A DNA stretch of 40,142 nucleotides from positions 1 through 40,142 of the forward strand of contig PFUL01000172.1 in NCBI GenBank assembly GCA_002790095.1, written 5' to 3'. Position 1 is the first letter of the stretch; every line of letters starts with the position of its first letter. The position numbers and the translations under genes were made by a program. The notes under the pieces are model-generated. The model did no database searches and was not told the origin of the DNA. It saw only the letters and a program-made list of their open reading frames with translations. Below are positions 1,056-17,218 of the stretch, in pieces. This DNA comes from Elusimicrobia bacterium CG_4_9_14_3_um_filter_62_55 (GTDB lineage: Bacteria > Elusimicrobiota > Elusimicrobia > UBA1565).

Positions 1056-2489
1056 ATGCCGCTCTCCGGAGCCCATAAATATTTCAATAAGTTCACGGCA
1101 TGGTCCCGGCATGAAGGCATGATCAGCGTCGAAGAGCCGGAGGCCCTGGATGAATTCTTTGTCAGTCCCGGCCGCATTCCCGAGGACGGCCGCGAACTGA
1201 TAGGAGCTCTTTTCAAGGATTGGTTCCTCCTGGAACGTAGGCTGACGCGGTGTGGATTAACCCCGCTCGATCTTTTCATCAAGACCCACCAGCGGCGTTT
1301 TAGAAAGACCGAGGCGGCCGCCTATCGAGAGATGAGGGAATCCAGCCGCTTCGGCATTTTCAAACTCACCGCACGAAAGGCGGGCGAGTGGCTGGACTTG
1401 ACGCCCATCCCGCGCGGGGAAGCTTGCCGCGTCATCGATGTGAAGGCTTCCGAGGACGGCCGGGAGGGACAGTTTCTGATAGCCCGGCTCTTTCGGTTCC
1501 AAGATTCCTGGGCGCTTTCGAGTTTCGTCGTGCGGCTTCCCGATGTTGCCGACTATCACTTGGAGCGCCTCATGCAGTCGCGCGGCGATAAACTCGAGGA
1601 TGAACCCATCCGCCATCGGTTCGTCCTTGGATTGTTCATGCCCCCCGTGGATTGGGAGAGCGAGGGCCTGCATCGTGTGCGCGCGCGTCTTGCATCGGTC
1701 CTGCAGCGTTGGCGCGTGGCCGATATCAGCGTTGCGCAGATCGAGGACGACATCCTTGCCGCGCATAAGATAGCGGCCACGGAGCACCCCCTTTCCCAGG
1801 TCATTCTAGACAAGGCGCCGTCCGTTGAGGCGGCCAAGGAGGCCGCTCCCCTTCTTCAGGCGATGTGGAACCTGACGCTGCCCGGCGAGACGCCGCGGCC
1901 CGGACCTAAGGAGAGATCCCTGCTCGGGGACTTGCAACGGTTCGTCATGAGCCGCCTTACCGATGAAGAGACGGCAAGCGATGCGCTTAGACCCACGGCG
2001 CGAGAGCTGACGCGGGAGTGGCTTGCAGCGCCGCAGAAGGAGTTGGACGGCAAGAGTCCCGGTGAAGTCATTCGTGAGGAACGACGGGCCCGTGGGAATC
2101 CTCATATGGAAATCGGCTATGACATCCAAGTGACGCCGATGGCCTGCGGTGAAGAGGAGGAGCGTGGATCGATCATGGTCAACCAGGGCATAGATCTGCT
2201 CCAAGCGGGACAGGCTGAGGCCGCTCTTGATCTTTTTTTGAAAGCCTATCCACTGGTCAAGGATGACCCGGAGGCGTTTCGAGTCATGGGCAATATGGCG
2301 ACGGCTTACACCATGCTGGGCAATCGCGAGGAAGCCCTGGCGATGCTGAGGACGGCCTTGAAGGCAAACCCTGATTACGAGGTTGCCCGCAATAACCTGG
2401 GGCTCCTCGAATCCCTAAGCCCCGATGAGTTTAAGCGCAGACACAGAAGCGGGTTTTTCACGAAAATGATCATCATCAAGGAGCGCTGA
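1056..2489 (+). CDS. TPR-containing protein with a WL-P-LdGksP segment
   Basis: A 477-residue, probably cytoplasmic protein without signal peptide. Residues 1-310 match no family I recognise. At about 321-345 there is a segment of the form EWLAAPQKELDGKSPGEVI. This resembles the 'W-L-x-x-P-x-x-x-L-x-G-x-S/T-P' block of MbcA/ParS-type and SEC-C-associated proteins. Residues of about 374-455 form two to three TPR helix pairs (VNQGIDLLQAGQAEAALDLF, then MGNMATAYTMLGNREEALAML). TPRs usually bind other proteins. The gene stands alone and is convergent with the mer-like operon. It is probably transcribed from the TAAAAT at 1041. Function unknown. Confidence 0.7.
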   Translation: MPLSGAHKYFNKFTAWSRHEGMISVEEPEALDEFFVSPGRIPEDGRELIGALFKDWFLLERRLTRCGLTPLDLFIKTHQRRFRKTEAAAYREMRESSRFGIFKLTARKAGEWLDLTPIPRGEACRVIDVKASEDGREGQFLIARLFRFQDSWALSSFVVRLPDVADYHLERLMQSRGDKLEDEPIRHRFVLGLFMPPVDWESEGLHRVRARLASVLQRWRVADISVAQIEDDILAAHKIAATEHPLSQVILDKAPSVEAAKEAAPLLQAMWNLTLPGETPRPGPKERSLLGDLQRFVMSRLTDEETASDALRPTARELTREWLAAPQKELDGKSPGEVIREERRARGNPHMEIGYDIQVTPMACGEEEERGSIMVNQGIDLLQAGQAEAALDLFLKAYPLVKDDPEAFRVMGNMATAYTMLGNREEALAMLRTALKANPDYEVARNNLGLLESLSPDEFKRRHRSGFFTKMIIIKER

Positions 2490-2669: not shown

Positions 2670-3563
2670 TCAGAACCACAATCGAAAGCTGCCTATTAGT
2701 CGATAGTCCGTTTTGAGGGCGGCCCCGTTGAGGCTTTGCACGGCCGGTAGCTGCGCAGCCAGCTCGAATACGGTCCTCTTGGACACCCACTGCAGCCCAG
2801 GCGTCAGGAACAAATGGTAGCCGCCCGAGTCGTCGTCCGCGACGCCGCCGGCCTGGTTCTTGGCCTGGTAGACGCTGTTGGCCTCCAATACCCCATAAAG
2901 GAAGCTGGGCAGACCCTCCGCCTCCAACCTCCTGGGCCAAAGGCGGTATTGCAGGGAAATATTCTGCTCCAGCGAATCGCCGAACTTGAAGTCATCGGCA
3001 TGCGTGTTCCTCCGGTAAGATAGGTCCGCGTCCACCTGAAAGGCAAGCCACTGGACGCTCCATACCGTGCCGAAGATCGGGTCGTAGGACCCGGACCCAA
3101 GCTGTACGCTGGGCGGCAAGACGCCTAGGGCGTCGGACTCATCGTTTCTGCCGCTGGGCCACTTGAGCCCGGCGAAGACCGCTCCGCGGCTGGTTTGGCC
3201 GGCGCTGCTGCGAGCAAAAACTTCATACCGGCCGACGGTCATAATGTCTCCCAGCCCGGAGGCCCGCCGGACCGCTCCGGTCGACTTGATCTCCAGCCTC
3301 TTGTCCAAATAAGGGAAAACCCCCATCAGCGCCAGCTTCGAAGTGGCCCCGTAAACCAGCGTGGAGGGGACCGCCGCGACATCCATCTCCCGTCCCATGG
3401 AAGAGGGATCATCATGCATTCTCATCCAGACTCCCTGCCCGCGAAAGAGCATTCCGCCCGCATGTACGGGAAGAGCGGTGTTGAAACTGATGGGGGCGGC
3501 TACGGCGTGCGGAACATGGGCGACGAGCAGCGCGCAAGACACGAGAATCCGCAGCGCTTTCAC
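2670..3563 (-). CDS. Outer-membrane beta-barrel protein of the mer-like operon
   Basis: A 297-residue protein with a cleavable signal peptide (about 1-23, ...HAVAA-PI) and alternating hydrophobic/polar strands, ending in a terminal aromatic strand (YRLIGSFRLWF). This is the usual mark of an outer-membrane barrel. The overall look (short loops, 'GLGDI...GRYEVF', 'AGLKWPSG') fits the MetA-type/'transporter' barrel group. It starts with GTG, which overlaps the TGA of the upstream NHL-HMA gene (GTGA), so it is translationally coupled as the last gene of the merR operon. It may let metal or its ligands cross the outer membrane; this is inferred only from context. About 180 bp of apparently empty sequence separate it from the convergent TPR gene. 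Confidence 0.65.
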   Translation of the reverse strand: MKALRILVSCALLVAHVPHAVAAPISFNTALPVHAGGMLFRGQGVWMRMHDDPSSMGREMDVAAVPSTLVYGATSKLALMGVFPYLDKRLEIKSTGAVRRASGLGDIMTVGRYEVFARSSAGQTSRGAVFAGLKWPSGRNDESDALGVLPPSVQLGSGSYDPIFGTVWSVQWLAFQVDADLSYRRNTHADDFKFGDSLEQNISLQYRLWPRRLEAEGLPSFLYGVLEANSVYQAKNQAGGVADDDSGGYHLFLTPGLQWVSKRTVFELAAQLPAVQSLNGAALKTDYRLIGSFRLWF

Positions 3564-4780
3564 GGGTTCTCCTTCCGAGCCGGCGCTATTTCCTTGAGTT
3601 CCGCAGCCTTGAAACCGGCCTTCTCAACGGCCTTGCGGACCTCATCGAAGGAAACGGTCTTGCCCGGCTCAAGATCCAAGATCGCCGTGCCCTGGCCCAG
3701 GTTGACGCGGGCGGAGCGCACGCCGGCAAGGCGGCCTAGGTGTTTTTCGATGCCGTAGGCGCAGAATGGACACGCCATTCCCTCGATCCGCACCAGCATG
3801 TCGCCGGAGACGCGCTCGGCGACCGCGGGGACTTGGACTTCCCGAGCGTCGGCGACCGCCCCGGCGTTGCCGAGGCTCAGGACCAGGATGCGGTCATTGG
3901 CGGTGTCGACCGCGAATACCCGTTCCTCCGGCCCGGCGGCGATACGGGTCGGAGAGTAGACATCCGGGTGTTTGTCGCCTGCCGGTTTCCATTCGCTCCT
4001 GAAGTCTCCCTTGGGTCCGAGCAGGACGACGCGCTTGTTGGCCGAGTCCGCGACATGAACATTGCCGCGGCCATCGACCGCGATGCCGCTGGGCACATGG
4101 AAAGCTCTATGCGAGAAGAATCGCTTCCATGCGGAGCCCCATATTTCCAGCACTCGTCCATCGGGCGTGAGCTTCTGGATTCGGTGGTTATAGGCGTCGG
4201 CCACCATCAGGTTGCCCGAGCCGTCGAAATCCAGGTCCGTCGGGTAGTTGAATTCGCCTTTGCCGCGCCCCTTCTTGCCGATGGACCTAAGCCACCTGCC
4301 TTTGGGATCAAAGACCTGGATGCGGTTGTTGTAGAAATCGGCCACATAGACATGTCCCGCCTTGTCGACCGCGACTCCGGCCGGCGAACGGAATTGGCCG
4401 TTTCCCTCTCCCGGTTCTCCCCATCCCAAAAGACTCTTGCCGTCCGGGGAAAAGGCCTCGACGCGGTCCGCTTCGTAGTCGCACACATACAGCGTTCCGT
4501 CGGCAGCGACCGCCGCGTCCACGGGCTTTTTGAACGCATCCGTTCCGCCGAACTCTGCGAGGAATTTACCTCTCACCGAGAACTTCTGCACCCGACGATT
4601 CCGCGAATCGGCCACATAGAGGTCGCCTTGCGCGTCTACGGCGACGCCCATGGGCTCTTGGAACTCCCCGGGGCCGGAACCGCTCGTCCCCCATGCGGCT
4701 ATGAGGCGATAGCCCGTGACATCAGCCCCGGAGGCCGCCACGGAAGCTGCAAGGAAAACGAGCGCCGACATCGATCTCAT
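3560..4780 (-). CDS. Secreted NHL beta-propeller fused to HMA metal-binding domain
   Basis: A 406-residue protein. A signal peptide covers about 1-18. Residues 25-305 contain about six NHL blades with the typical 'P.GVAVD..G..YVAD..N.RVQ.F' wording (for example 44-67, 134-157, 180-203 and 230-253). Residues 328-397 form a heavy-metal-associated domain with G-M-A-C-P-F-C (C337, C340), as in MerP and copper chaperones. NHL propellers are binding scaffolds, and HMA domains carry Hg(II), Cu(I) or similar soft metals. The pairing suggests a periplasmic or surface metal-capturing scaffold. The ATG overlaps the preceding TGA (ATGA), and the 3' end overlaps the outer-membrane gene. I do not know this fusion as a characterised protein. 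Confidence 0.85.
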   Translation of the reverse strand: MRSMSALVFLAASVAASGADVTGYRLIAAWGTSGSGPGEFQEPMGVAVDAQGDLYVADSRNRRVQKFSVRGKFLAEFGGTDAFKKPVDAAVAADGTLYVCDYEADRVEAFSPDGKSLLGWGEPGEGNGQFRSPAGVAVDKAGHVYVADFYNNRIQVFDPKGRWLRSIGKKGRGKGEFNYPTDLDFDGSGNLMVADAYNHRIQKLTPDGRVLEIWGSAWKRFFSHRAFHVPSGIAVDGRGNVHVADSANKRVVLLGPKGDFRSEWKPAGDKHPDVYSPTRIAAGPEERVFAVDTANDRILVLSLGNAGAVADAREVQVPAVAERVSGDMLVRIEGMACPFCAYGIEKHLGRLAGVRSARVNLGQGTAILDLEPGKTVSFDEVRKAVEKAGFKAAELKEIAPARKENP

Positions 4781-5247
4781 GATATTTCTCCCTTGATCTC
4801 ATTAATGGCTGCGGTGACATTACCTAGGCAGCAGGCGCCCTGGGGGTTCTTGCGTTCGCAGTCGCAAACCCCTGCCTTCACCTGCGCTCTGATCCGCTCG
4901 GGGATGTCCGTCGTTCCCGTTTTAACGATGTCCCGGCGCAGGTCGCCCCGACTGTGCTCGAAGCAGTAGCAGACGAGGACCTCGTCGCCCGCGTCCTTGA
5001 TCGTTATGAGCCTGAGGGTCTCGCCGCGCTTGATCACGAAGCCTTGCGGGTTGCAGTAGACCACCTCGCACTCGGGGTTGAGGCAGAAAGCAGCATCCTC
5101 ACCGATAGACGCCCGCAGGTGTTGTGGGACATGCTGGTCCAAGGTCAGCGCCGTGACCTTGCGTCCCGCGTTGCCGCAGACCGGGCAGGGGCAGGTCGTG
5201 GTTTTTATCTTGCAGCAGGATTCGTGGCTAGGTGCCCGTTCTTCCAT
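4777..5247 (-). CDS. CopZ-like Zn/[2Fe-2S] cysteine-rich protein
   Basis: A 156-residue protein with 14 cysteines. It matches the N-terminal domain of Archaeoglobus CopZ. A CPVC pair at C21/C24 is followed by FCLNPECEVVYCN (C55, C60, C65), VCYCF (C93, C95), VCDC (C128, C130) and CC (139-140). In CopZ such residues hold one zinc and one [2Fe-2S] cluster. It has no HMA domain of its own; that partner domain occurs instead in both neighbours (MerTP and NHL-HMA). No signal peptide, so it is cytoplasmic. The ATG at 5247 lies inside the 3' end of merTP and has an AGGAG site. It may reduce or relay metal on the cytoplasmic side; this role is inferred. Confidence 0.8.
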   Translation of the reverse strand: MEERAPSHESCCKIKTTTCPCPVCGNAGRKVTALTLDQHVPQHLRASIGEDAAFCLNPECEVVYCNPQGFVIKRGETLRLITIKDAGDEVLVCYCFEHSRGDLRRDIVKTGTTDIPERIRAQVKAGVCDCERKNPQGACCLGNVTAAINEIKGEIS

Positions 5248-5827
5248 CGTCGTCTCCTGGCAAGACCTGCGCCTCATATCCGGCGGCCGCGACGGCTTGG
5301 AGTACAGCGTCGGCGCCGACCCCGTCATTGGTCTTGACGAGAGCCGTTCCCTCATCGAAATCTACCTGTGCGGAGTAGACGCCGGGGACCTTCTTGACGG
5401 ACTTCTCGATCGACACGGCGCAGGCCGTGCAGGTCATGCCCGACACCTTGAGCGCTAAGGTCTTCGCGCCCGCGGGAGCCGTGCCCGAGTCGCGGCTCAA
5501 AAGGCAGGCGGACCAGGTTGGGAATGTGGCCAGGGTCACGGTCAGCGCGGTCAGGCCCCAAAGGCCGGCCTTCATCGCTTTGCTTCCGGAACGGATATTG
5601 CAGGAGCCGTCCGCGCAGGCGACCTCGCGTTTGCGGTAGGCGAAGTAGAATCCCGCACCCAAAACGACGGCGGTGACGCCCAGGAATATCGGGCGATACT
5701 GCGTAACTCCCGCGGCCAAGCCAAGGCTGCCCAGGCCCAAGGCTGTGAGAACAAGCGGCCCAATGCAGCAGATCGATGCGAGTCCGGCCGAGAACAGCGC
5801 GGCCAGCCCCATGAGTTTACTGTTCAT
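5228..5827 (-). CDS. merT: Mercuric ion transport protein MerT fused to MerP-like HMA domain
   Basis: A 199-residue inner-membrane protein. Residues 1-110 follow MerT: a first membrane helix with the vicinal pair in SICCIGPLVL (C20, C21), a second helix at about 45-64, a loop pair C71/C76, and a third helix at about 86-108. Residues 124-190 are an HMA domain with GMTCTAC (C133, C136). In MerT these cysteine pairs pass Hg(II) from the periplasm to the cytoplasm, while the HMA domain replaces a separate MerP. The ATG overlaps the merR stop (ATGA). Its use for another soft metal such as copper cannot be excluded, but the MerR regulator argues for mercury. Confidence 0.88.
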   Translation of the reverse strand: MNSKLMGLAALFSAGLASICCIGPLVLTALGLGSLGLAAGVTQYRPIFLGVTAVVLGAGFYFAYRKREVACADGSCNIRSGSKAMKAGLWGLTALTVTLATFPTWSACLLSRDSGTAPAGAKTLALKVSGMTCTACAVSIEKSVKKVPGVYSAQVDFDEGTALVKTNDGVGADAVLQAVAAAGYEAQVLPGDDDGRTGT

Positions 5828-6240
5828 TTCTTTTTCCCTCCTTCTTCCAAGCTCTCCAAGATCGGACAGGCGTCGGTGGTGCCGCGCTTAGCGCAGGTAT
5901 GGACCAGCCGGTTGAGGACCCGTTCCATCCCCCGAAGAGCGGTGATCTTTCCTCGAACGATCTCAAGCCGCGCCTGCGCCTGTTTGCGTACCGCCCCGCA
6001 TTGGGTCCGGCGGCCTATCCGCAGCTTGAGCAGCCGCGCGATCTCGTCCAAGGTGAAGCCTAATTCCTGGGCGTTCTTGATGAAGCGGAGCTTGCGCACG
6101 GTCTCAAGGGCGTAGAGCCGGTAGCCCGAATCGAGCCTGATTTCCGGCGCGATCAAGCCCCGCCGTTCGTAATAGCGCACCGTCTGGATGTTGACGCCGG
6201 CCTCGCGGGCCACGCGCCCGATCTTCAGTTCCGCGTTCAT
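5824..6240 (-). CDS. merR: Mercury-responsive regulator MerR
   Basis: A 138-residue MerR-family activator. The winged helix-turn-helix spans residues 5-70 (IGRVAREAGVNIQTVRYYER). It is followed by the dimerisation helix. The three mercury ligands are C81, C116 and C125. The spacing of 35 and 9 residues is the same as C82/C117/C126 of Tn501 MerR, which separates it from CueR and ZntR types. The ATG at 6240 follows a GGAGG site; an upstream in-frame ATG at 6285 lies in the promoter -35 box and is rejected. It is the first gene of the operon it probably controls, so it autoregulates from the same strand, unlike the divergent merR of Tn501. Confidence 0.92.
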   Translation of the reverse strand: MNAELKIGRVAREAGVNIQTVRYYERRGLIAPEIRLDSGYRLYALETVRKLRFIKNAQELGFTLDEIARLLKLRIGRRTQCGAVRKQAQARLEIVRGKITALRGMERVLNRLVHTCAKRGTTDACPILESLEEGGKKK

Positions 6241-6253
6241 GGTCCTTCCTCCA

Positions 6254-6285
6254 AGTATAAACCGTGTACCTGAGTATAGAGTCAA
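6254..6285 (-). promoter_or_regulatory. MerR-type promoter/operator
   Basis: Read on the minus strand: TTGACT (6285-6280), a 20-bp spacer, TATACT (6259-6254), then GGAGG and the merR ATG. A 19-20 bp spacer is the hallmark of promoters that MerR regulators activate by twisting DNA. The spacer holds a partial dyad, GTAC-CTGA-GTAT on the plus strand (6266-6277), close to the GTAC-ATGA-GTAC core of the Tn501 mer operator. Confidence 0.75.
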
Positions 6286-6392: not shown

Positions 6393-7031
6393 TCAATTCA
6401 ACGACAGTTGACAGTGCTTCGGGTTTTCCCGTGAAGCGCCCTTCTGGATCTCCAGGAAGTTGTCGAGCGCGGGATTCGCCGCCATCAGCACGCGCGTCAG
6501 CACGCCCGCGTCGCCGGTCAACCGCTTCGCGCACAGCGAGGTCGCGGCTTTAAAGGCCAGGTCGCTCATGTCCTCGTCGGTTTTCGGCTCCCAGCCCGCG
6601 ACGCGCAGGTACTCATTCGAGAACGAGCGCAGCTCCCGCGTCCAGGTGTCGAACAGGCCGTAGCAGGCCGTCCCGGTGCAGTTGTAGCCGAGGGCTTGGT
6701 TGATCTTCTGAAGGCGGCGGCACAAAGTCGTGCCGGGGGTCTTCTTGCAGGTCAGCACCTCCGTCTCTTTATCCGTTTTTGCCGGGGATTCCAGCTTCCG
6801 GGCGGCGGCGGTCTTCCTCTGCGACTCGGGCGCCGCGGCGAGAGTCTTTATGCCGCCGGGAAGCGCCTCGCTTCCTTCGACGGAGTCGAGCGCTTTCGCA
6901 TCGTCGGCGAGTTCGGTCAGGTTGACGGAAAAGGAGGCGGCGCCGCTTTGGGCCTTCGCTGCTTCCAGGGTTTCGGCGTATCCCGCGGCGCTGCAGCTCA
7001 GCGCGAGGACTGCGATCAATATCGTTTTCAT
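6393..7031 (-). CDS. Secreted protein of unknown function
   Basis: A 212-residue protein. The signal peptide is about residues 1-19 (MKTILIAVLALSCSAAGYAE). A low-complexity, Ala/Lys/Glu-rich stretch runs to about 90. The C-terminal half is more ordered, with cysteines in LTCKK, TTLCRR, YNCTGTACYG, SLCAKRL and the final KHCQLSLN, which could form three disulfides in the periplasm. The ATG at 7031 has a clear GGAGG site. It appears monocistronic; a -10 TAGAAT lies at 7067-7062. No family recognised. Confidence 0.7.
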   Translation of the reverse strand: MKTILIAVLALSCSAAGYAETLEAAKAQSGAASFSVNLTELADDAKALDSVEGSEALPGGIKTLAAAPESQRKTAAARKLESPAKTDKETEVLTCKKTPGTTLCRRLQKINQALGYNCTGTACYGLFDTWTRELRSFSNEYLRVAGWEPKTDEDMSDLAFKAATSLCAKRLTGDAGVLTRVLMAANPALDNFLEIQKGASRENPKHCQLSLN

Positions 7032-7548: not shown

Positions 7549-8928
7549 TCAGAAGCGCGTAAGTTCGCGTTCCGGCGGCCCCGTCAGCACGGGGGCCTGG
7601 TCGCGGTTTTGCCGGCGAGCGGCGTCCTGCACCTTGGGCTTCAAGTAGCCGAACAGCGAGCGGGCGGTCACGCCCCCGTCGCCGGTCTTCGCCTCACCGG
7701 CAAAGCCTTTCAGGAAGTAATACGTGAAAATCCCGTGGCCTTGGTCGCCGAGCGTGCTGGTGATCTGATCGCCTGCCGCCGCGGCAAACACCGTCATCTC
7801 GGCCGGCGGCGCCGCCGAGCTCACCGTCGTCACCAACGGCCGCGCGCCCTTGGCCAGCACCGACCTCCCGCCCGCGCCCGAGAAGCAGGCGTCGAGTGCG
7901 ACGACCACCTCCTTCGCGTCCAACGCGGACAGGCGCGCGTAGAGGCGCTTGAGGGGGTAGCCGGTGTTTTCCAGGAAGTTCGGGTCCCCGTCCCAGGGGA
8001 TCAGGTAGGCCTCTCCGGTTTTGGGATCAGGCGCTCCGTGGCCCGAGAAGTAAAAGAACACGCGGCTTTCGCGCGTCGCGTTGCGCGGCAGCCAGGATTC
8101 CAAAAACTTCTCCAGCGATGAACGACCGGCCTTCTCGCCGCTCAGTTCGACGACGTTGCGGCTGGGGTAGCCGGCGGCGATCAGATGGTTCTTCATCGCC
8201 TCGGCGTCGTGCTCGGCGTATTGCGCGTCCGGAAGGTCCATGTACTTCTCGATGCCTACGACGATCGCGAAATCGTCCTTGCGCTCGGGATGCCGGTAGC
8301 GCGGCGCGTCCACGTCGGAAACCGGCGCCCGCGCGGGAGCCGTTTGGGCTCGCGTCGCGCCCGCGACCGCGGCCTGCACGATGCCGGCGATGTCCTCTTT
8401 GGAAATGCCGCCGGACGCCCGCACCGAGGCGGCTCGTTCCTCGTCGGTCGGCCCTTCGGCGGCCCGGCGCCGCAGCGCCTTAAGCGCGCGGGCGAAGCGC
8501 AGCGCCGGCTGTTCGTTCGGGAAGAAATACGCCAGGTCGCCGCAGTGCGGACCGAGCGGAATCTCATAGGTCAGCGACCGCGCGCGCCCCGCGCCGCCGG
8601 TCTTGTACTGGTTGATCGCGTCCCCGCCGATCGAATCGTAGGGACAGCCCAGATTGACCGACCGGGTTTGATCGGAAAGGAGTCCGTGGTAGGCGTCGTA
8701 GTTGAGAATCAGACGGTCCTCTTCGACCTGGGCGATCCCGCCGCCTTTCATCGTCGCCATCACGAAGGCCCGCTTCTCCAGGATGCCGCTGCGCGCGGCC
8801 GCGAGCAGTTCCTTCTTCGCTTCTAGGAAGCCGAGGCGGGGGGCTTCGGCGACGGGCTTGCGGGCGACGACCGTGGCGCAGCCGGCGAGCAAAGCGGCGG
8901 CGAGCGCCGCGAGCAGGGATCGTTTCAT
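7549..8928 (-). CDS. Caspase-like (peptidase C14) lipoprotein
   Basis: A 459-residue protein. The signal sequence ends in the lipobox LLAGC (Cys17), so it should be lipid-anchored. Residues 30-205 form an unknown domain. The caspase/metacaspase domain spans about 215-440: strand FAIVVGIEKY at 220-229, catalytic His in YFSGHG (His297), and catalytic Cys in DACFSG (Cys348). Such enzymes cut after Arg/Lys or Asp. Substrates here are unknown. The start at 8928 is chosen because it begins the signal peptide; the frame is open upstream but crosses the papain-like gene region. It lies 92 nt downstream of the papain-like gene on the same strand, so the two proteases may be co-expressed. Confidence 0.88.
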   Translation of the reverse strand: MKRSLLAALAAALLAGCATVVARKPVAEAPRLGFLEAKKELLAAARSGILEKRAFVMATMKGGGIAQVEEDRLILNYDAYHGLLSDQTRSVNLGCPYDSIGGDAINQYKTGGAGRARSLTYEIPLGPHCGDLAYFFPNEQPALRFARALKALRRRAAEGPTDEERAASVRASGGISKEDIAGIVQAAVAGATRAQTAPARAPVSDVDAPRYRHPERKDDFAIVVGIEKYMDLPDAQYAEHDAEAMKNHLIAAGYPSRNVVELSGEKAGRSSLEKFLESWLPRNATRESRVFFYFSGHGAPDPKTGEAYLIPWDGDPNFLENTGYPLKRLYARLSALDAKEVVVALDACFSGAGGRSVLAKGARPLVTTVSSAAPPAEMTVFAAAAGDQITSTLGDQGHGIFTYYFLKGFAGEAKTGDGGVTARSLFGYLKPKVQDAARRQNRDQAPVLTGPPERELTRF

Positions 8929-9020
8929 CGCGAGACTTCCCGGGCGGAATGGGCGACGGCCTTCCCCGTTTGGGGATCCGCACGGAAATATCAGGGGAAC
9001 AGTCCTGCCAGGGGAGGGCC

Positions 9021-10064
9021 TCAGCGGACGCTGAAGATGCCGTGCACCTTGCACATGTCGCGGGGGAACATGTCGAAGTTGCCGCCCGCGCCCCAGGAGT
9101 TGCGGGTCTTAAACACCGCCTTGCCGTCGTCTCCAACCGTGTAGCCGGAGATAATCAGCACGTGGCTGGCGAACATCGCGCCCGAGACGTAGCTGACACC
9201 CACCGGCCGCCCCGCCTTGAGCTCCGCGAGCACCGACTCGGCACGCCCCGCGCCAACCGACTCGCAGCGCGCGTCGGAGAGCTTCAGCTCCTGAGGGGCC
9301 GCCGCGTGCAGGCTTTTGACCACCCGAAATCCCGCGAGTTTTCTGCGCGTCGCTTCGCGCTGGTCCTCGATCGCGCGGTCGTTGCCGAGCAGGTAATTCT
9401 GCAGAATCTTCCGGGAGGCCGGGTCCTTCTGCAGTTTCTTCCAGTGCGTGCGCGGGTTGTAGAGCAGCTTCACGTACCACGGCATCTCCCGGTATTCGCG
9501 CTCGATGCCTTCGAGCGTTCGCCGTTCCGCCTCGCGGTAGCGCCGGTAGCGCCCGAGAAAGTCCGCGTACTGCGGTTCGGTCGCCACGCCGTGCTTGATC
9601 GCGAAGTCGATGTCCCCGGTCGCCAGCAGGGTGATTGAAGACCCGCCTTCTTTTAAATCCGCCTTTCCATTGTAGGTGTACCCCCGGTCCAGGATGCTGC
9701 CGCTGTAGATGTTTCCGTTCAACACCGTGTTCTGCAAAAAGAGGTCGGCGTCCGAGAACGCCTGGTGCTCTCCGTATTTCCGGTAGTACGCCGCCTCGAG
9801 CAGGCCGATCGACGCGAACGCGTGGCAGGAGCCCACGTCGCCTTGGTTGCGCGAGCCTGTGGGGAACTGATCCGAGTGGTCGACGCCTTCGCCCGGCTTG
9901 AACTTCCCGGCCGGGGCCGCGCGGCCGGCGATCGGCGGGGGCAGGACGCCGGTCTCGCCGGTGATCTTGCGCAGCGCGTTAAGCGCGACGGCGCTTTCCC
10001 CGGCGAAGCTCGCCGCCGGCAGGGAAAGCGCCAGGATCGCGAAGAGGCGTCGGATCATGTTCAT
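9021..10064 (-). CDS. Secreted papain-like (C1A) cysteine protease
   Basis: A 347-residue protein with a signal peptide (about 1-21) and a pro-region to about 65. The catalytic set of papain is present: Gln74 and Cys80 in RNQGDVGSCHAF, His301 in FASHVLIISGY, and Asn322 in TRNSWG. Papain normally has GSCWAF; here Trp is replaced by His. An insertion of about 80 mostly charged helical residues (about 170-250) lies between the two halves of the fold. Two ATGs, at 10064 and 10058, are both possible; neither has a strong Shine-Dalgarno. The product probably acts in the periplasm or outside the cell. It is followed by the caspase-like lipoprotein gene. Confidence 0.85.
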   Translation of the reverse strand: MNMIRRLFAILALSLPAASFAGESAVALNALRKITGETGVLPPPIAGRAAPAGKFKPGEGVDHSDQFPTGSRNQGDVGSCHAFASIGLLEAAYYRKYGEHQAFSDADLFLQNTVLNGNIYSGSILDRGYTYNGKADLKEGGSSITLLATGDIDFAIKHGVATEPQYADFLGRYRRYREAERRTLEGIEREYREMPWYVKLLYNPRTHWKKLQKDPASRKILQNYLLGNDRAIEDQREATRRKLAGFRVVKSLHAAAPQELKLSDARCESVGAGRAESVLAELKAGRPVGVSYVSGAMFASHVLIISGYTVGDDGKAVFKTRNSWGAGGNFDMFPRDMCKVHGIFSVR

Positions 10065-14262: not shown

Positions 14263-15399
14263 TTACCGGGGTCTGACCCCGGTACAATCGCCGCGCGTGC
14301 GGCTCAGCAAGGAGGCCGCCAATTTGGGCCAGAGCGTGAGCGCGCGCAGCGTCAGCTCCGAAGCGGCGGGTCGAATCAACAATGCCTGAAGCCGGCGCCC
14401 CACGCGAAGCCGCGAAGAAAAACGCCGCCGCCACGCATCATCCCAACGCCCCGCGAGATCCCCGTCCCCGGCGATCATCAACTCCGCAAGAAGCACCGCC
14501 GACTCCAAGGCCATCGCCTGCCCGTCCCCGCAAAGCGGCGCAATCATCCCTGCCGCGTCGCCGATGAAGAAAACAGAGCCCGAACTCGTCGCCTTCGCCG
14601 TGAATCCCAACTGCGCCACGGCCAGCGGCTTACCGTCCGGCCGCAGCGCTTCCATCCGGCCGCGCAGACTGGGACTCAGCCCCCCTAAGAGCCCCGCCGG
14701 ATCGCGGTGGAGGTTCTTTAAAACGCGCGACCGGGCAAGAAGACAAACATTCACCGCACCGCCGTCGACCGCGTTGACCCCGCAGTAGCCCCCGTCAAAA
14801 AGATGAATCTCCACCGTCCCGCGCAGCTCCGCCGCGATCGACTCGGCGCCGGGCAGGAAGGCGTGGTGACGCTTATAGCCGACGAAGGGGGAATGACGGA
14901 GCAGGCTGCGTCCGGAGGCGGCGACGACTCGGTCGGCGAGCAGGCGACGCTTCTCGCGGGTCCCGTCGGGAAGAGTCCTCTCGATCTCCAGCCGGACGCC
15001 GCCCGAGTCTTCGTTCATACGCGTGACCCTCGCGCCCTCGAAGGCCGACGCTCCCGAGCGTTCGGCATGGCGAAACAAGGTCTCATCCAACGCCGCGCGG
15101 CCGAGCCCCATCGCCTCCGCGCCCAGGTCGATCTCGACGCTGCGGCCGGAGGGAGAGACGAAGCGGGCGCTCGTGATCGCGGCGGGACCCAAGGCGCGCA
15201 CCGCGTCGAGACAGCCGATGCGCTTTAGGAGGGACTGTACCTCCATCGATAGAAACTCGCCGCACAGCTTTTGCCGCGGGAAGCGATCGCGTTCAAGCAG
15301 CACGGGCCGTCTCCCGGCGCGAGCGAGCAAAGCGGCGCACGCGCTTCCGGCCGGGCCGCCGCCGACGATCGCCGTGGAACAGCGCTCGGGCAGGTTCAC
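14263..15399 (-). CDS. FAD-dependent oxidoreductase of the type III PKS operon
   Basis: A 378-residue flavoprotein of the UbiH/geranylgeranyl-reductase type. Residues 10-38 bind the FAD dinucleotide (AIVGGGPAGSACAALLARAG, ending in LLERD), and 277-295 hold the second FAD motif (FFIGDAAGMIAPLCGDGQ). It probably hydroxylates or oxidises the aromatic lipid made by the polyketide synthase. The start is GTG at 15399, overlapping the methyltransferase stop (GTGA); a longer open frame upstream lies inside that gene. The last codons (TGVRPR) and the stop are made by the REP palindrome at 14264-14284, so the natural C-terminus may have been changed by its insertion. Confidence 0.85.
   Translation of the reverse strand: MNLPERCSTAIVGGGPAGSACAALLARAGRRPVLLERDRFPRQKLCGEFLSMEVQSLLKRIGCLDAVRALGPAAITSARFVSPSGRSVEIDLGAEAMGLGRAALDETLFRHAERSGASAFEGARVTRMNEDSGGVRLEIERTLPDGTREKRRLLADRVVAASGRSLLRHSPFVGYKRHHAFLPGAESIAAELRGTVEIHLFDGGYCGVNAVDGGAVNVCLLARSRVLKNLHRDPAGLLGGLSPSLRGRMEALRPDGKPLAVAQLGFTAKATSSGSVFFIGDAAGMIAPLCGDGQAMALESAVLLAELMIAGDGDLAGRWDDAWRRRFSSRLRVGRRLQALLIRPAASELTLRALTLWPKLAASLLSRTRGDCTGVRPR
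14264..14284. repeat. REP-like perfect palindrome, copy 2
   Basis: Arms TACCGGGGTC and GACCCCGGTA around one T, with the same GGGGTCTGACCCC centre as copy 1 at 12577. It overlaps the 3' end of the FAD oxidoreductase gene and may also act as its transcript end. Confidence 0.7.
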
Positions 15400-16094
15400 C
15401 GCGGCACCGCCATCTGCCAGCGGAAGGCCCAGCGCCAGCGGATCTCCGGCGCGGGCAGTCGGGTTTGGCGGCACAACGCCTCGAGTTCGCCGCGGCTGAA
15501 GCCGCGCAGGACGGAGAGCGGCGCGTCGTGGCGGATGAGGCGGTTGCCGGAGAACAGCGCGGTCATCGAGCGTATGCCGAGATAGGCCAGCGGGTGGCGG
15601 TGGAGATCGTTGACGGCGACGCCGAGCCGCGCGCGCTCGTGCATCGCCTTGAGCGCGCGGGCCGCATCATCGCCGGGGCAATGGTGAAGCAGCAGCCCCG
15701 CATGGACGATGTCATAGTCCTCGCCCGCGTCGAGCGAGAAGAGATCGTCTTGCGAGAAGGAAAGTCCAGGTCGCCGCCGCTCCCGGGCCAGGGCCACCGA
15801 CCCTTTGGAGAGGTCGATGCCGTGCAGCTCCGCCGCGATCCCGCGCGACGCGGCCCAATCCAAGATGACGGAGCCAGCGTCCCCGTCGCCGCAGCCCGCG
15901 TCGAGAATCCTCAGGCGCTTCGTGCCGGGCGGGGTCAAGGCGTTTAAGGCGCCGAGCGTGGCGGCATGGCCGCCGAGCCGCCGGTTGATGAAAGCGAGTT
16001 GTCGAAAGGTCTCGCGCAGTTCCGCTTCGGGCGAGTCGTCTGCGTCCATGAGCTCCAAAGCGTCGCTGCGCCGGCTGAAATCGACGGGAGTCAT
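15396..16094 (-). CDS. SAM-dependent methyltransferase of the type III PKS operon
   Basis: A 232-residue class I methyltransferase. Motif I is ILDAGCGDGD at 63-72, an acidic ribose-binding residue is in LHGIDLS at about 92-98, and a post-motif block YDIVHAGLLLHHCPGDDAAR follows at about 126-145, similar to UbiE/COQ5-like enzymes. The ATG overlaps the stop of the polyketide synthase gene (ATGA), and its own stop overlaps the oxidoreductase GTG, so the three proteins are co-translated. It probably methylates the phenolic or quinone product at O or C. The exact substrate is inferred. Confidence 0.85.
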   Translation of the reverse strand: MTPVDFSRRSDALELMDADDSPEAELRETFRQLAFINRRLGGHAATLGALNALTPPGTKRLRILDAGCGDGDAGSVILDWAASRGIAAELHGIDLSKGSVALARERRRPGLSFSQDDLFSLDAGEDYDIVHAGLLLHHCPGDDAARALKAMHERARLGVAVNDLHRHPLAYLGIRSMTALFSGNRLIRHDAPLSVLRGFSRGELEALCRQTRLPAPEIRWRWAFRWQMAVPR

Positions 16095-17218
16095 CGCGGG
16101 GGAAGAAAGAGCGCGCCTTCCATCGTCAGCCCGGGGCCGAAGCCGAGCGCCGCGAGCGGGCCGGTCTCGCCGCGCGCGAACTCGCGCTCGAGTACGAAGA
16201 AGATCGTCGCGCTCGACATGTTGCCGCAGTCGGCCAGCACGCCGCGCGCGGAACGCGTTGAGTCGTCATCGAGGCTGAGCGCCTCGCAGAGCGCCGAAAC
16301 GATGCGCCGCCCGCCGGGATGCGGCGCCCAGCGCCGGAGATCCTCCCGGGCAAGTCCCGCCCGCGCCGACAACTCGGCGACGAAGGCGGGGGCGTGCGCC
16401 CGGATCGTGCCGGGCACGCGCCGATCGAGGCTCATCTCAAAGCCCGTGTCGCCGATGCGCCAGGACATCTGGTCGCGGCTGTCGGGCGCGATGCGCCCAT
16501 GCGTCGCGGCCAAATCGGCCAGGCCGCCCGGCCGCGCACCCGGCGCCGCGAAGACCGCGGCGGCCGCGCCGTCGGCGAATAGACTGTTGGCGACGAGAAA
16601 TTCCGGACGAAGGCGCTTTTGAAAATGAAGCGAGCATAATTCGACGGAGACGACGAGCGCGACGGCGCCCGGGTCGGCCCCGATGAAGGCTGCGGCCAGC
16701 TTCATCGCGTTAAACCCCGCGTAGCAGCCCATGAAGCCGATTTGGGTGCGCGAGACGTCCGCGCGCAGGCCGAGATCGTCGATGAGCTTCAGGTCGGGGC
16801 CGGGGGCGAAGAAGCCCGTGCAGGTCGCGAAGACGAGATGGGTCACCTCTTGCGCCGTGAACCCCGAGCGCGCGAGCGCCGCGCGCGCCGCCGCTTCGGC
16901 GAGGGGCGGCGCCTTAAGTTCGAAAACTTCCATGCGCCGCGCGGTGCTCGGGAAAGGCTCCAAATCCCCGCTTGGGGGGAAGAACTCGAAGTCGGCGGAG
17001 TTCGCCTGCGAGTAATCCTTGAGGACGCTGTGGCGCCGCTCGATGCCCGAGGAGGAATAAAGCCGCTCGATGAACGGCACCGCGCGTTCGCCTTCCTCGC
17101 CGAACGACTCGCACGCCGCCGCCGTCATAAAGCGCATGACGGTATGCTGCGAGGACGCGTTCTCGGGCAGCGCGGTGCCGAGGGCGTACAGGCGAGCGGG
17201 GGGGGAAGAGGGACGCAT
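16091..17218 (-). CDS. Type III polyketide synthase (chalcone/stilbene synthase family)
   Basis: A 375-residue homodimeric ketosynthase. The catalytic triad is present: Cys165 in GFMGCYAGFNA, His300 in WAPHPGG and Asn333 in DCGNMSS. Length and the ending GFGPGLTMEGALF fit the family. With a methyltransferase and an FAD enzyme coupled behind it, the layout recalls the srs-type operons of Streptomyces and similar sets elsewhere. Those make alkylresorcinols or alkylpyrones that are methylated and oxidised to phenolic lipids or quinones. The ATG at 17218 has no Shine-Dalgarno, and a TATCCT five bases upstream suggests a leaderless message. Starter acyl chain and product cannot be read from sequence. 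Confidence 0.92.
   Translation of the reverse strand: MRPSSPPARLYALGTALPENASSQHTVMRFMTAAACESFGEEGERAVPFIERLYSSSGIERRHSVLKDYSQANSADFEFFPPSGDLEPFPSTARRMEVFELKAPPLAEAAARAALARSGFTAQEVTHLVFATCTGFFAPGPDLKLIDDLGLRADVSRTQIGFMGCYAGFNAMKLAAAFIGADPGAVALVVSVELCSLHFQKRLRPEFLVANSLFADGAAAAVFAAPGARPGGLADLAATHGRIAPDSRDQMSWRIGDTGFEMSLDRRVPGTIRAHAPAFVAELSARAGLAREDLRRWAPHPGGRRIVSALCEALSLDDDSTRSARGVLADCGNMSSATIFFVLEREFARGETGPLAALGFGPGLTMEGALFLPPR

Follow-up and report, generated by a model that had tools for sequence, protein, structure and literature searches.

Mercury resistance in bacteria has been viewed with the mercuric reductase MerA at its centre, and operons have been catalogued around merA, with the result that merA-less units were overlooked. 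A 2021 survey reported 906 genomes with MerB but without MerA and asks how the released Hg(II) is handled (PMC8261052). Operons with merR as the first gene and in the same direction are a minority of the known mer operons (PMC3466566), and in Synechocystis the MerR protein Slr0701 controls the distant merA-like gene slr1849 under Hg (PMC6741143). The CopZ protein of A. fulgidus is a copper chaperone, the Fe-S domain of which reduces Cu(II) according to a review (PMC7558416). Here we analyze a five-gene operon in a stretch of 40,142 nucleotides (contig PFUL01000172.1, our contig C202; hereafter the window) from the metagenome-assembled genome (MAG; 4.3 Mb, 95% complete) of the groundwater-dwelling Elusimicrobiota member Elusimicrobia bacterium CG_4_9_14_3_um_filter_62_55. 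Judged from its sequence, this is probably a MerR-controlled mercuric-ion operon in which the cytoplasmic partner conserved alongside the Hg(II) sensor and importer is a CopZ-like protein instead of MerA.

The five-gene operon

All five genes are genuine and constitute a single transcription unit, with one MerR-type promoter upstream of the whole set (Table 1). An earlier sequence-only reading of the window had assigned named domains to them, and all open reading frames (ORFs) were confirmed, as were the domains using Pfam and NCBIfam. The same reading had described one promoter and 4-base overlaps; the promoter and three of the junctions agree with this, whereas the MerT-MerP and CopZ-like genes overlap by 20 bases (4, 20, 4, and 4 bases in the order from merR to the barrel gene). 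The arrangement is not due to chance, because the identical order was found again in other genomes.

Table 1. Features of the operon, its neighbours, and the second cluster of the same genome
Feature	Position	Strand	Remarks
MerR-type promoter/operator	6254..6285	-	TTGACT, 20 bp spacer with internal dyad, TATACT
MerR regulator, 138 amino acids	5824..6240	-	Three cysteines at MerR positions
MerT-MerP fusion	5228..5827	-	Pfam/NCBIfam; MerT and HMA domains both above cut-off
CopZ-like Zn/[2Fe-2S] protein	4777..5247	-	Above NF047645 cut-off
NHL-HMA protein, exported	3560..4780	-	NHL matches; C-terminal HMA domain with ACPFCAYGIEKHL
Outer-membrane beta-barrel channel	2670..3563	-	PF13557; COG4313/FapF-like fold
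TPR gene, flanking neighbour	1056-2489	+	No recognisable relation to the operon
ORF of unrecognised kind, other neighbour	6393-7031	-	No recognisable relation to the operon
Second merR-merTP-copZ cluster	L158:8617-10399 (C180)		Followed by a thioredoxin-like gene of 90 amino acids

The MerT-MerP fusion comprises three helices with a CC in helix 1, a C-x4-C loop, and a C-terminal HMA domain with GMTCxxC, which are the paired cysteines expected of MerT and MerP. The MerT and HMA domains score 41.9 and 53.6 bits, respectively, and the protein as a whole stays below the cut-off of the MerTP_fusion equivalog (95.7 vs 180). The CopZ-like protein reaches an NF047645 score of 107.8 (cut-off 100) and consists of an N-terminal CC, the zf_CopZ Zn site, and CYC...CDC...CC cysteines of the [2Fe-2S] type, without an HMA domain. 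In alignments of CopZ-like proteins the Zn-site and [2Fe-2S] cysteines are conserved, and the N-terminal cysteine pair is present in most members. The only solid relative in the PDB is 2hu9, the N-terminal Zn/[2Fe-2S] domain of A. fulgidus CopZ (profile, 80.7 bits).

Conservation in Elusimicrobiota and the metal signal

A search of 341 Elusimicrobiota genomes with NF047645 yielded 28 loci above the cut-off in 22 genomes. merR is located beside copZ in 25 of these 28 clusters and a MerT-MerP gene in 24, the order merR-merTP-copZ is kept across them, and two clusters consist of merR-copZ without merT. The joint occurrence of these genes beyond the genome of the window supports the sequence-only reading, and gene set, operator, conservation, and co-occurrence are direct observations. 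The thioredoxin-like gene that follows the second cluster of the same genome recurs in genome G214 and behind merA-copZ in genome G138.

The operator consensus TTGACTCTATACNNNNGTATAGGGTNTATACT, with a spacer of 20 bp, precedes merR in 24 of the 25 Elusimicrobiota clusters checked, and a scan of the fetched, partly redundant sequence (~1.9 Mb) gave strong matches solely in front of merR. The window operon itself has the MerR-type operator of mer operons, with a dyad in a spacer of 19-20 bp. Three Hg-binding cysteines, spaced as in Tn501 MerR, are invariant in 19 aligned MerRs including that of the window. The description of this regulator as a true Hg-type MerR is supported by these cysteines and the operator, but not by the model score: TIGR02051 is the best model at 125.2 bits, below its cut-off of 150.85, and several MerR-family models give nearly equal scores. 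A similar value (122.7 bits), likewise below the cut-off, was obtained for the MerR of G138, a relative that carries merA in its operon.

The operon of G138 has the order merR-merTP-merA-copZ-thioredoxin and the same operator as the window, and its MerA scores 521 bits and ends in ...SCCT. Because a true merA thus lies inside one sister operon under the same operator, mercury is, as far as sequence can tell, very probably the signal for this operon family, and the G138 operon is the best evidence for a mercury response. This partly agrees with the finding that would have refuted the sequence-only reading, merA as a regular operon member in close relatives; however, merA was found in the operon of this one relative only, in 1 of the 28 Elusimicrobiota clusters, and its presence is therefore not the normal state. 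The G138 MAG additionally encodes HgcA (G138:C23:28079-28999, L146; 386 bits), so that HgcA and a true merA coexist in one MAG. A link to mercury methylation was considered and rejected: HgcA is absent from the genome of the window and was found in G138 only among the 23 cluster genomes.

merR-copZ units in other phyla and on plasmids

A Myxococcales MAG has the order copZ-merTP-merA-merP-copZ, and in Planctomycetota CopZ, MerT, and MerP are joined in one ORF (plasmid pK2D_1, where the record names it 'mercuric reductase'; also L109). One such CopZ-MerT-MerP fusion (L113:4833-6068, CP036351.1) has been deposited as 'merA mercuric reductase', likely a misannotation.

Among plasmids of cultured bacteria, a CopZ-like match was obtained in 25 records, and in 16 of these it is preceded on its own strand by a MerR-family gene, either directly or with merF between them (15 by annotation, one through a near-identical sister record). 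Two-gene merR-copZ units occur in Peribacillus, Stenotrophomonas, and Cytobacillus, the MerR proteins of which score 173-183 bits and thus exceed the TIGR02051 cut-off, and a similar unit was identified in Cohnella by annotation. The units of Stenotrophomonas, Cytobacillus, and Cohnella have the mer-type promoter TTGACCCTGTACTATGGTACAGGGTTTATACT or one very near to it. In the 2-5 kb inspected on each side of the plasmid merR-copZ units, the annotation contains neither merA nor merT. Cyanobacterial plasmids carry thioredoxin-merR-merF-copZ, and two Deinococcus plasmids carry MerR-CopZ-MerB (L229:1484-2913; L232:1478-2913) with no merA annotated beside it. The Deinococcus MerB matches PF03243 and keeps the C-x2-D and second cysteine motifs, and the accompanying MerR is a weaker match to TIGR02051. 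A search for MerB in the cluster genomes gave no match in 26 genomes, a weak negative since the control likewise gave no match anywhere.

merR plus a CopZ-like gene, sometimes with merB, is the minimal unit on plasmids of cultured bacteria, and no description of a merR-copZ or mer-NHL system was found in the open-access literature. Since the recurring minimum is the sensor with the CopZ-like protein, the latter is the likeliest effector, and the two-gene operons strengthen the earlier proposal of such a role for the Fe-S protein. Exceptions among the plasmids are copZ genes near merA-merB in Halorussus and, in Enterococcus and Paenibacillus, CopZ-like genes without MerR that lie behind heavy-metal P-type ATPases. 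The latter, the copper chaperone function of A. fulgidus CopZ (PMC7558416), and the near-equal scores of several MerR-family models would suit an operon in which MerT-like import and a CopZ-type chaperone supply copper or another thiophilic metal to the cell and MerR senses that metal. However, the MerR model scores best, the three MerR cysteines are invariant, and the window operon has no copper ATPase; copper handling is less likely because sister operons contain merA and merB, and we regard it as improbable.

For the mercuric-ion operon that we favour, we infer the metal, its hand-over, and the reduction chemistry as follows. Cytoplasmic Hg(II) would turn MerR from a repressor into an activator, and MerT-MerP, the putative feeder in the larger operons, would move periplasmic Hg(II) inward via its cysteine pairs. 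In the CopZ-like protein, the two N-terminal cysteines would then take over the ion and retain it in a trapping step; the [2Fe-2S] cluster of this protein may reduce Hg(II), or the protein may hand it to a reductase encoded elsewhere.

Tentatively, MerR-CopZ may represent a MerA-independent mercury detoxification module of several phyla, in which a cytoplasmic Zn/[2Fe-2S] protein with vicinal cysteines would capture Hg(II) and perhaps reduce it. Such a module would be the missing Hg(II) sink of some MerB-positive, MerA-negative organisms and would, in the window, be joined to an outer-membrane mercury route. The interpretation given in the sequence-only reading is thus upheld in part, with a shift of emphasis: the merA-independent merR-copZ core across several phyla is more noteworthy than the envelope-spanning set. 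merR-copZ and MerR-CopZ-MerB operons offer a concrete candidate answer for the genomes with MerB and without MerA, and one that can be tested in culturable strains, as Peribacillus, Stenotrophomonas, Cytobacillus, and Deinococcus are among the carriers.

MerA and MerA-like enzymes

Canonical MerA, defined by its C-terminal cysteine pair, was found neither in the operon, as the sequence-only reading had stated, nor elsewhere in the 95% complete MAG, and among the 23 cluster genomes searched only G138 has a MerA above the cut-off. The best candidates in the genome of the window (397 and 391 bits vs a cut-off of 454) lack the C-terminal CC and were rejected; they are FAD (flavin adenine dinucleotide) oxidoreductases of the NF004991 type, each preceded by a TVP38/TMEM64-like gene.

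These enzymes could nevertheless act in trans, with the operon importing and chaperoning Hg(II) and a TVP38-linked NF004991 oxidoreductase encoded elsewhere reducing it, on the model of cyanobacterial Slr1849, the gene of which is distant from its merR. In the genome of the window the enzyme is represented by two complete copies and a fragment. It occurs in 13 of the 22 copZ genomes vs 28 of all 341 (Fisher p ~1e-10, ignoring relatedness), and in 10 of these 13 the distance to the copZ cluster is 2-17 kb. NF004991 also matches Synechococcus elongatus and none of the other control genomes, and Slr0701 and slr1849 provide a precedent for control in trans (PMC6741143), although Slr1849 is a presumed member of NF004991. 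On the other hand, the NF004991 enzymes lack the cysteine pair that defines MerA, no copZ-type MerR operator precedes their genes in the fetched loci, 15 genomes carry the enzyme without copZ, and the genes share an island with arsenic-methylation and arsenosugar genes. Reduction in trans is therefore a rather unlikely explanation, though less so than copper handling. Many copZ islands (L147, L148, L149, L150, L152, L153, L154, L155) contain TVP38 and a MerA-like FAD reductase; ArsM/radical-SAM, TIGR04283 arsenosugar glycosyltransferase, and phosphate permease genes as well as an ECF-type sigma factor accompanied by a small anti-sigma-like zinc protein are found in the same islands.

Several points weigh against a mercuric-ion operon centred on the CopZ-like protein. 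The MerA-like flavoenzymes in 13 of 22 genomes, usually near the cluster, could be the actual reductase, and since MAGs are incomplete a plasmid-borne merA could be missing. The window MerR lies under the curated cut-off, and the CopZ-like family is not Hg-specific, because some members adjoin heavy-metal P-type ATPases without MerR. Finally, Hg binding and Hg induction are, for these proteins, predictions from sequence.

The NHL-HMA protein and the outer-membrane barrel

The NHL-HMA protein scores 137.9 bits for NHL and 40.9 bits for HMA, and a single-sequence model predicts a six-bladed propeller with four strands per blade, followed by a flexible linker and the C-terminal HMA domain. The barrel protein matches PF13557 with 34.7 bits (cut-off 22), and its AlphaFold2 model has a signal helix followed by 15 strands (pTM 0.74). 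In Foldseek this model is closest to FapF and to 4rl8, a COG4313 channel, with E-values as low as 1.8e-9 and a TM of ~0.6, and the protein has the signal peptide and beta-barrel of PF13557/COG4313 outer-membrane channels.

A profile of the barrel gave six strong loci in the 341 Elusimicrobiota genomes (407-522 bits; the next score is 157 bits), all of them beside copZ, so that 6 of the 28 copZ clusters have a barrel. The full NHL-HMA protein occurs in three genomes, and in G166 the NHL and HMA parts are encoded by separate frames; all four are beside copZ, and the remaining NHL proteins of the phylum score much lower. In this phylum, close homologues of the last two operon genes are thus always kept with the cluster. 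In the position of NHL-HMA, other clusters encode an exported HMA protein with a length of roughly 110-200 amino acids. In G195, a frame of 595 amino acids (L148:3838-5625) combines an ECF-type sigma factor with NHL-HMA, either as a real fusion or as an in-frame join of two genes.

In a Krumholzibacteriota MAG, reached by scanning a genome collection with the CopZ alignment, copZ is divergent from an operon of exported HMA-barrel-NHL lipoprotein-merR-merTP, the full set as separate genes, with a MerR-like promoter on each side of the divergence; no MerA above the cut-off was found in its genome. merR-exported HMA-barrel occurs in one further Krumholzibacteriota and one Planctomycetota genome, and HMA-barrel in a third Krumholzibacteriota genome. 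On plasmids, only distant NHL proteins and barrel relatives of 23-36% identity were detected, two of the latter with an adjoining HMA gene. NHL-HMA and the barrel are accordingly a rarer add-on to a widespread mer variant. The sequence-only reading had named the whole set its best candidate for an undescribed system; the set is less unique than this implied.

The proposed span of the whole envelope is plausible from the signal peptides and the barrel model, while we infer the direction of flow. The exported NHL-HMA protein would bind a thiophilic metal in the periplasm and act with the outer-membrane channel. Rather than feeding MerT, the two might clear periplasmic metal outward. The operon would then trap metal in the cytoplasm and remove it from the periplasm, an alternative that concerns direction only and agrees with the mercuric-ion operon favoured here. 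On a plasmid of Marinobacter salarius, a weak MerR-like site is followed by consecutive genes for a P-type ATPase, an exported HMA protein (with the CPFCAYGIEK motif of NHL-HMA), and a barrel homologue, and the barrel model resembles the passive COG4313/FapF channels. However, this is the single ATPase case seen and the window operon has no energy source for export, and outward clearance is a possibility we hold with some doubt.

Other genes in the window

By eye, the genes at 14263-17218 resemble those for a type III polyketide synthase, a methyltransferase, and an FAD monooxygenase, possibly a small pathway; a synthase gene related to the first lies near copZ in G203, G206, and G209. At 7549-10064 a caspase-like peptidase lipoprotein adjoins a papain-like exported protease, also by eye.

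Comparison with known systems

The barrel shares its predicted fold with the COG4313/PF13557 channels (4rl8) and FapF, but identity is ~15% and, whereas those channels belong to phenol degradation or amyloid secretion, its genetic surroundings are those of metal resistance. Like the cyanobacterial split mer system (Slr0701, Slr1849), the genome of the window has a MerR without a linked canonical MerA and encodes a MerA-like enzyme at another locus; the Synechocystis system, however, lacks MerT/MerP, and in the fetched Elusimicrobiota loci no common operator was found before the MerA-like genes. With A. fulgidus CopZ, the CopZ-like protein shares the full-length match to NF047645 ('putative iron-sulfur cluster-binding metallochaperone') and the 2hu9 profile match, whereas it lacks the C-terminal HMA domain and has MerR and MerT-MerP, not a copper ATPase, as neighbours. 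[2Fe-2S] binding and metal reduction are reported for A. fulgidus CopZ and may, by analogy, apply to the subgroup of the CopZ-like protein.

The three-cysteine MerR, the long-spacer MerR operator, and the cysteine pairs of MerT-MerP are shared with mer operons of the Tn501/Tn21 and Bacillus RC607 type, and the position of merR, first and in the same direction, is that of the minority of mer operons (PMC3466566). Unlike these operons, the window operon has a CopZ-like Zn/[2Fe-2S] protein instead of MerA and adds an exported NHL-HMA protein and an outer-membrane channel. It is a large form of the module, with periplasmic and outer-membrane parts that the generic mer schemes compared here do not include.

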